A stretch of 12,312 bases of DNA. Source: Lysobacteraceae bacterium (GTDB lineage: Bacteria > Patescibacteriota > Patescibacteriia > JAACEG01). This document shows positions 5,734-6,005 of the stretch, piece by piece (positions within the stretch are counted from its first letter, which is position 1; the number at the start of each line of letters is the position of its first letter). The stretch spans positions 1 through 12,312 of the forward strand of contig JAACEG010000029.1 in NCBI GenBank assembly GCA_011682665.1, read 5' to 3'. Under the pieces are notes generated by a model. It was not told the DNA's origin, did not search any database, and saw nothing but the letters and a program-made list of their open reading frames with translations. A program made the position numbers and the translations under genes.

Positions 5734-6005
5734 ATGGCACACAAAAAAGCAGGCGGATCAAGCGGGATTCCAAATCAAAACGTTTAGGCGTTAAGCTTCA
5801 TGATGGACAATTTGCCAAAGTCGGATCAATTATTATCCGCCAAAGAGGAACAAAATTTCATCCAGGGGAAAATGTAATGGTAGGAAAAGATTATACTCTT
5901 TTCTCTGCGATTAATGGTTTTGTTAAATTCACCACAAAAAAACTTAAAAAATTTGACGGTAATCTAAAAAAAACAAAGATCGTTAATGTCTTAAAAATAA
6001 AATAA
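5734..6005 (+). pseudogene. rpmA: Ribosomal protein L27 gene with a frame-breaking deletion
   Basis: The ATG at 5734 opens MAHKKAGGSS, the invariant L27 start, then runs off frame to a TAG at 5785-5787 (17 aa). In the -1 frame, from 5763, L27 resumes: RDSKSKRLGVKLHDGQ, GSIIIRQRGTKFHPGENV, VGKDYTLFSAINGFVKF and a Lys-rich tail to TAA at 6003-6005. The family has S/T-R-N-G-R between GGS and DS, which needs 15 nt; only 5 nt (agcgg, 5761-5765) are present, so 10 nt are missing. The sequence is otherwise clean, without other stops or decay. That suggests a very recent lesion, an assembly error, or -1 recoding: an A6G run lies at 5743-5749, and the -1 frame is open from there. L27 sits at the peptidyl transferase centre of the 50S subunit, and the affected N-terminal arm is the part that reaches it. 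The usual partner rplU (L21) is not next to it. No Shine-Dalgarno sequence is seen. Confidence 0.9.

Follow-up and report, generated by a model that had tools for sequence, protein, structure and literature searches.

Programmed -1 ribosomal frameshifting, of which dnaX of E. coli is an example, usually follows the slippery heptamer rule X-XXY-YYZ. Indels occur in metagenome assemblies, and our search of the literature on indel errors in MAGs gave nothing. For ribosomal protein bL27, the product of rpmA, an extract of PMC4647459 states that E. coli ribosomes devoid of L27 form peptide bonds normally. According to an extract of PMC12871816, deletion of the L27 gene caused a 10,000-fold drop in viability that was partly rescued by removing tmRNA. 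The role proposed for the protein there, that of a gatekeeper against tmRNA-SmpB, is debated. Among the titles and abstract starts listed in our literature searches on L27 and on CPR ribosomal proteins, none concerned a broken rpmA.

The window, meaning the whole stretch of DNA that was analysed (12,312 nt), is one entire contig, C101, of a 679-kb Patescibacteria MAG (G000) that consists of 109 contigs and is 76% complete. A sequence-only reading of this DNA had claimed that the L27 gene is broken by an apparent 10-nt deletion in its most conserved part, and our analysis agreed. Translation of frame 0 from the ATG at 5734 gives MAHKKAGGSSGIPNQNV, terminated by the TAG at 5785-5787, while the body of the protein continues in the -1 frame. 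We defined the junction by reading the window DNA against the protein alignment of intact relatives. Ser9 is encoded by TCA at 5758-5760 and Arg14 by CGG at 5763-5765; since only 2 nt lie where intact L27s have four residues, 10 nt are missing. The earlier count of 5 nt in place of 15 equals ours of 2 in place of 12 once the Arg codon is counted. The A6G run was likewise located correctly, and the -1 frame is open from it, as had been claimed, extending from 5730 to the TAA at 6003-6005. Read from 5748, this frame gives SRRIKRDSKSKRLGVK..., and the -1-frame piece (P0001) scored 100.8 bits (cut-off 20.5) in a match to the Pfam family Ribosomal_L27 (PF01016), covering profile positions 8-76 of 79. 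The best-ranked L27 matches of the window were mostly from Patescibacteria MAGs, judged by their record titles. A second rpmA, which the same reading had proposed to look for, was found nowhere in the 109 contigs of this 76%-complete MAG, and an Rfam scan of the window at the gathering threshold gave no match. The window gene is most likely the ordinary single-copy rpmA of a Patescibacteria genome. The features of the locus are listed in the table.

Table. Features at and around the interrupted rpmA gene, in window coordinates
Feature	Position	Strand	Description
Riboflavin kinase	4756-5130	-	Divergent neighbor; identical to P0122 on a 15,637-nt contig
Promoter-like element	5179-5206	+	TTGACA-N16-TATACT; aligns with a similar element ahead of the intact G001 rpmA
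Dispersed repeat	5237-5401		26-nt inverted ends; between promoter-like element and start codon; absent there in G001
Block of dispersed GC-rich palindromic repeats	5422-5725		Directly upstream of rpmA; absent there in G001
rpmA, frame 0	5734-5787	+	ATG 5734, MAHKKAGGSS, out-of-frame GIPNQNV, TAG 5785-5787
A6G run	5743-5749	+	Conserved codons of Lys4 and Lys5 plus the G that begins Ala6; shared by the intact sister gene
Deletion junction	5761-5762	+	2 nt versus 12 nt (residues 10-13) in intact L27s
rpmA remainder, -1 frame	5763-6005	+	Arg14 to TAA 6003-6005; PF01016; uninterrupted, conserved
Acetyl-CoA synthetase-like gene	6062-7972	-	Convergent with rpmA; same place in G001

A protein search with the -1-frame piece returned P0002, a 93-aa L27 with normal N-terminal spacing that is recorded on a 15,637-nt contig, in a record that is a cluster of two member sequences. 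The last 79 residues of P0002 are identical to those of the window L27; however, its residues 10-13 are unencoded at that place in the window, so P0002 is not another reading of the window contig. Exact matches to the window riboflavin kinase (P0122, 124 of 124 residues) and to the window P-type ATPase (P0131, 867 of 867 residues) were each recorded on one 15,637-nt contig. Judging from this shared length, the three proteins are most simply read as lying on one longer contig that represents the same locus with rpmA intact, and the locus very probably exists elsewhere in an unbroken form. An assembly or population variant was one of the explanations offered earlier, and P0002, the exact ATPase and riboflavin kinase matches, and the intact gene of the sister genome described below bear out that pair of options as a pair. 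True loss of L27, which had also been raised, is not supported: P0002 is intact, shares its body with the window protein, and is recorded at what seems to be this very locus.

The sister-genome comparison that had been suggested was made with G001, a genome of the same genus, and its rpmA is intact at the corresponding site, with a riboflavin kinase on one side and an acetyl-CoA synthetase on the other. The N-terminal arm is in frame with the body in G001 and in P0002, whereas in the window the frame breaks after codon 9. In G001, the open gene is spread over two contigs that have 127 identical nt in common, which suggests a branch of the assembly graph at this point; the overlap would correspond to the k-mer length. 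The G001 assembly breaks inside rpmA at the ends of contigs C11 and C35 (L033 and L032).

We surveyed L27 in wider sets of relatives. It was found in 49 of 57 genomes (the window's own included), with 50 matches; apart from that of the window and one at a G001 contig end, each match begins at position 1 or 2 of the profile. In the class, 184 of 190 genomes (each at least 90% complete, the window's own excepted) had L27, and among the matches listed the only late starters were the same two. At the level of loci, an L27 segment was present in 115 of 118, several genomes being represented by two loci, and 89 of the 115 segments had the 13-residue arm spacing by pattern. The remaining 26, read by eye, comprised 18 normal N-termini with different spelling, 2 from the window itself, 2 from a truncated G001 contig end, 2 (L021 and L027) whose N-terminus lies outside the printed segment and which both match the profile from position 1, and 2 that are genuinely shorter (L065 and L076). 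Among the 120 best P0001 homologues listed from 7,998 scored candidates, 112 had the standard 13-residue spacing, 3 carried the arm behind an N-terminal extension, and 5 were annotated from an internal start. The spacing of the L27 arm is nearly fixed, and the gap in the window is not due to chance. The two shorter proteins, L065:4987 and L076, come from rumen Kiritimatiellae; their N-terminus is MAGAASARNGRES, which is 3 residues shorter and does not contain the HKK of the arm, and AAGGAG stands ahead of the ATG in L065.

The existence of these two proteins is one of the points that could be raised for recoding, by which a -1 shift at the A6G run would give a functional L27 with a basic arm (MAHKKSRRIKRDSKSK...); the -1 frame is indeed open through the region, and the run could slip. 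However, the run is a Lys-Lys codon pair that is present in the intact sister G001, with no special signal, and the in-frame codons CAC AAA AAA G are not an X-XXY-YYZ heptamer. The product would also lose residues 6-13, the second half of the arm, and end 3 residues short, and, the window aside, none of the 50 matches, which come from 49 of the 57 genomes, showed the two-frame arrangement. Because the run is ordinary Lys-Lys coding that the intact sister shares, the proposed recoding is without support, and we regard it as extremely improbable. A shorter L27 whose translation begins inside the -1 frame is just as hard to credit. The five homologues annotated from an internal start, at ..GRDS, and known from protein records, speak for it; against it, the first ATG, GTG, or TTG of the window's -1 frame after the stop at 5727 is the ATG at 5877, deep in the body.

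The body of the gene was compared with that of G001 over 79 codons, and 21 synonymous and 8 nonsynonymous codon changes were counted, with a dN/dS of 0.073. The corresponding values were 0.067 for the acetyl-CoA synthetase and 0.18 for the riboflavin kinase. The L27 body is under strong purifying selection, and rpmA appears to have been normally constrained until very recently, or to be so still; the earlier suggestion that the lesion is recent fits these values. The relaxed selection expected of a pseudogene was not seen in the body, although a very recent loss would leave no trace. This result bears on the view that the lineage truly lost L27 by this deletion and that the gene is a young pseudogene, a view for which it can be said that the sole rpmA in the assembly is the broken one and that the promoter-like element is separated from the start codon by dispersed repeats, approximately 490 nt in all, that are missing from G001. 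We call the element promoter-like for its likeness to the sigma-70 consensus. The leader repeats (5237-5725) belong to two families with 87 matches in the genome, a count that includes the query itself and matches on both strands. Set against this view are the absence of relaxation in the body, the intact protein at the apparent same locus, and the presence of L27 in 184 of 190 class genomes; moreover, the genome is 24% incomplete and a second copy is possible. True loss by this deletion is, in our estimation, very improbable. Repeat-derived reading frames of the type LRAKRSNP / SLRGGTTKQS also occur at 1-485 and 3319-3519 of the window.

The explanation that we consider best, and probably correct, is an ordinary rpmA with a fault of assembly or consensus calling, in an organism whose L27 is intact. 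The consensus of this one contig of a fragmented MAG carries a gap of 10 nt behind codon 9, and the remainder of the gene is out of frame; by this account, the organism itself would have an intact L27, and the gap would have arisen in assembly or consensus calling near the repeat-rich leader, with no fixed genetic change. The technical cause is inferred; the repeats lie approximately 35 nt upstream of the lesion, which makes an assembly fault plausible. Two observations argue against such a fault. A loss of 10 nt is not a typical homopolymer error, and G000 is not generally error-prone. For the latter, 21 of the 109 G000 contigs (193 kb) were compared with approximately 444 kb of G001, and no frameshift was seen in 52 gene pairs (approximately 16,300 codons). 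The 52 pairs leave out matches of less than 60% identity, partial matches at the edges of contigs, and the L27 pair, in which the G001 gene is cut by contig ends. By the rule of three, zero frameshifts in 52 pairs bounds the rate at roughly 6% of genes. Seven alignments were flagged, none with two frames side by side as in L27: five "stop" flags fell ahead of the real start codon in ORFs that had been called too long (two in G000 and three in G001), one "partial" flag seems to mark a spurious ORF, and the other partial (query L168_13236_15557, 170 of 773 residues) is without explanation.

Because no frameshift occurred in the 52 pairs, the contigs are not riddled with errors, and there is room for a deletion that is real but segregating. 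Some cells of the population would carry the deleted allele and others the intact one; the assembler would have chosen the former for the window and the latter for the 15,637-nt contig, and carriers of the deleted allele would have no full-length L27. We hold this to be unlikely but a serious contender to the assembly or consensus fault. Apart from the gap, the three proteins compared do not differ between the window and the 15,637-nt record, as would be the case for two alleles of one population, and the gap stands in a genome with no other frameshift in the pairs compared. As to whether carriers could live, the PMC12871816 extract has E. coli surviving the loss of L27, with slow growth, and that of PMC4647459 has peptide-bond formation unchanged. 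Against the segregating deletion, the loss is costly, with the 10,000-fold fall in viability given in the former extract (PMC12871816), and the genome keeps tmRNA and SmpB, which do part of the harm according to that same extract. A real loss-of-function allele of rpmA segregating in a wild Patescibacteria population whose cells still have both tmRNA and SmpB is a doubtful proposition, if one with some weight; such an allele would put the proposed gatekeeper role of L27 to a natural test.

SmpB and tmRNA are both encoded on contig C106 of the window genome, and loss of L27 is therefore expected to hurt. No L27 was found in 8 of the 57 genomes (the window's own included in the set), and a repeat of the search at E values up to 10 on those 8 still gave none; in the class set, as defined above, 6 of 190 genomes had no L27. 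L21 was present in all 9 genomes without an L27 match, namely those 8 and G089. We then tabulated trans-translation in 28 genomes, 9 without and 19 with L27 (the window's own included). SmpB was present in 7 of 9 genomes without L27 versus 16 of 19 with it, and tmRNA scored above the family cut-off in 6 of 9 versus 17 of 19; G050, which has no L27, has a further sub-threshold tmRNA match beside smpB. Two genomes, G003 and G061, have L27 and neither SmpB nor tmRNA. In this small set of 28 genomes, absence of L27 and absence of trans-translation are thus not clearly linked.

We considered and rejected a group-wide loss of L27, with 49 of 57 and 184 of 190 genomes having the gene. The most complete genome without L27, G011, was also considered as a true loss and set aside. 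Its ftsX is missing too, with a match of only 19 bits, and ftsX adjoins rpmA in four members of its family (G108, G141, G158, and G172); a gap in the G011 assembly is therefore likelier than loss of L27. G040, a member of the class (97% complete), has no match for L27 or SmpB and no tmRNA over the cut-off, and has L21. G004 (93% complete, 20 contigs), which belongs to the family of the window genome, has no L27 match, and its riboflavin kinase has a different neighbor.

The window also encodes a P2-type (Ca2+-ATPase-like) ATPase at 694-3297 on the + strand, with the motifs LTGEW at 1225 and DKTKT at 1705. We aligned it to a solved Ca2+-ATPase; it has DKTKT in place of the DKTGT phosphorylation signature and TGEW in place of TGES. 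In its best 120 homologues, the fourth residue of DKTxT was K in 70, R in 26, A in 15, L in 5, and G in 4, and the last residue of TGEx was W in 98, S in 17, and N in 1, with the motif not found in 4. Among 29 loci from relatives, DKTGT was present in 25, DKTAT together with TGEW in one (G019, L204), and DKT was not found in 3. A literature search for DKTKT found none. Going by these motifs, the protein looks like a member of a conserved clade of P-type ATPases with altered catalytic motifs. The ATPase is a stronger lead than the broken rpmA and deserves a study of its own.

For rpmA, the main lesson is one of caution: in a fragmented MAG, damage to a gene that is nearly universal was striking, yet it could be traced to one contig once an intact protein had turned up on a contig that is seemingly the same locus. 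A deletion that was both real and common would offer a natural population in which to examine the debated role of L27 as a gatekeeper against tmRNA-SmpB (PMC12871816).

Measured against known systems, the locus resembles programmed -1 frameshifting such as that of dnaX in having an A-rich run ahead of a -1 continuation. It differs in that the run is Lys-Lys coding shared with the sister genome, no heptamer stands in the right phase, and the two-frame arrangement is unconserved. It resembles metagenome-assembly indels in having a lesion on one contig in an otherwise intact gene and an intact version of the apparent locus on another contig; in contrast to such indels, the gap spans 10 nt and the genome has no other frameshift in 52 gene pairs. 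With bL27 itself (rpmA, PF01016), the window gene shares the protein body, the profile match, the single copy in the assembly, and the neighbors seen in G001, and it departs from that family in the 10 nt missing after codon 9, which break the frame within the N-terminal arm.
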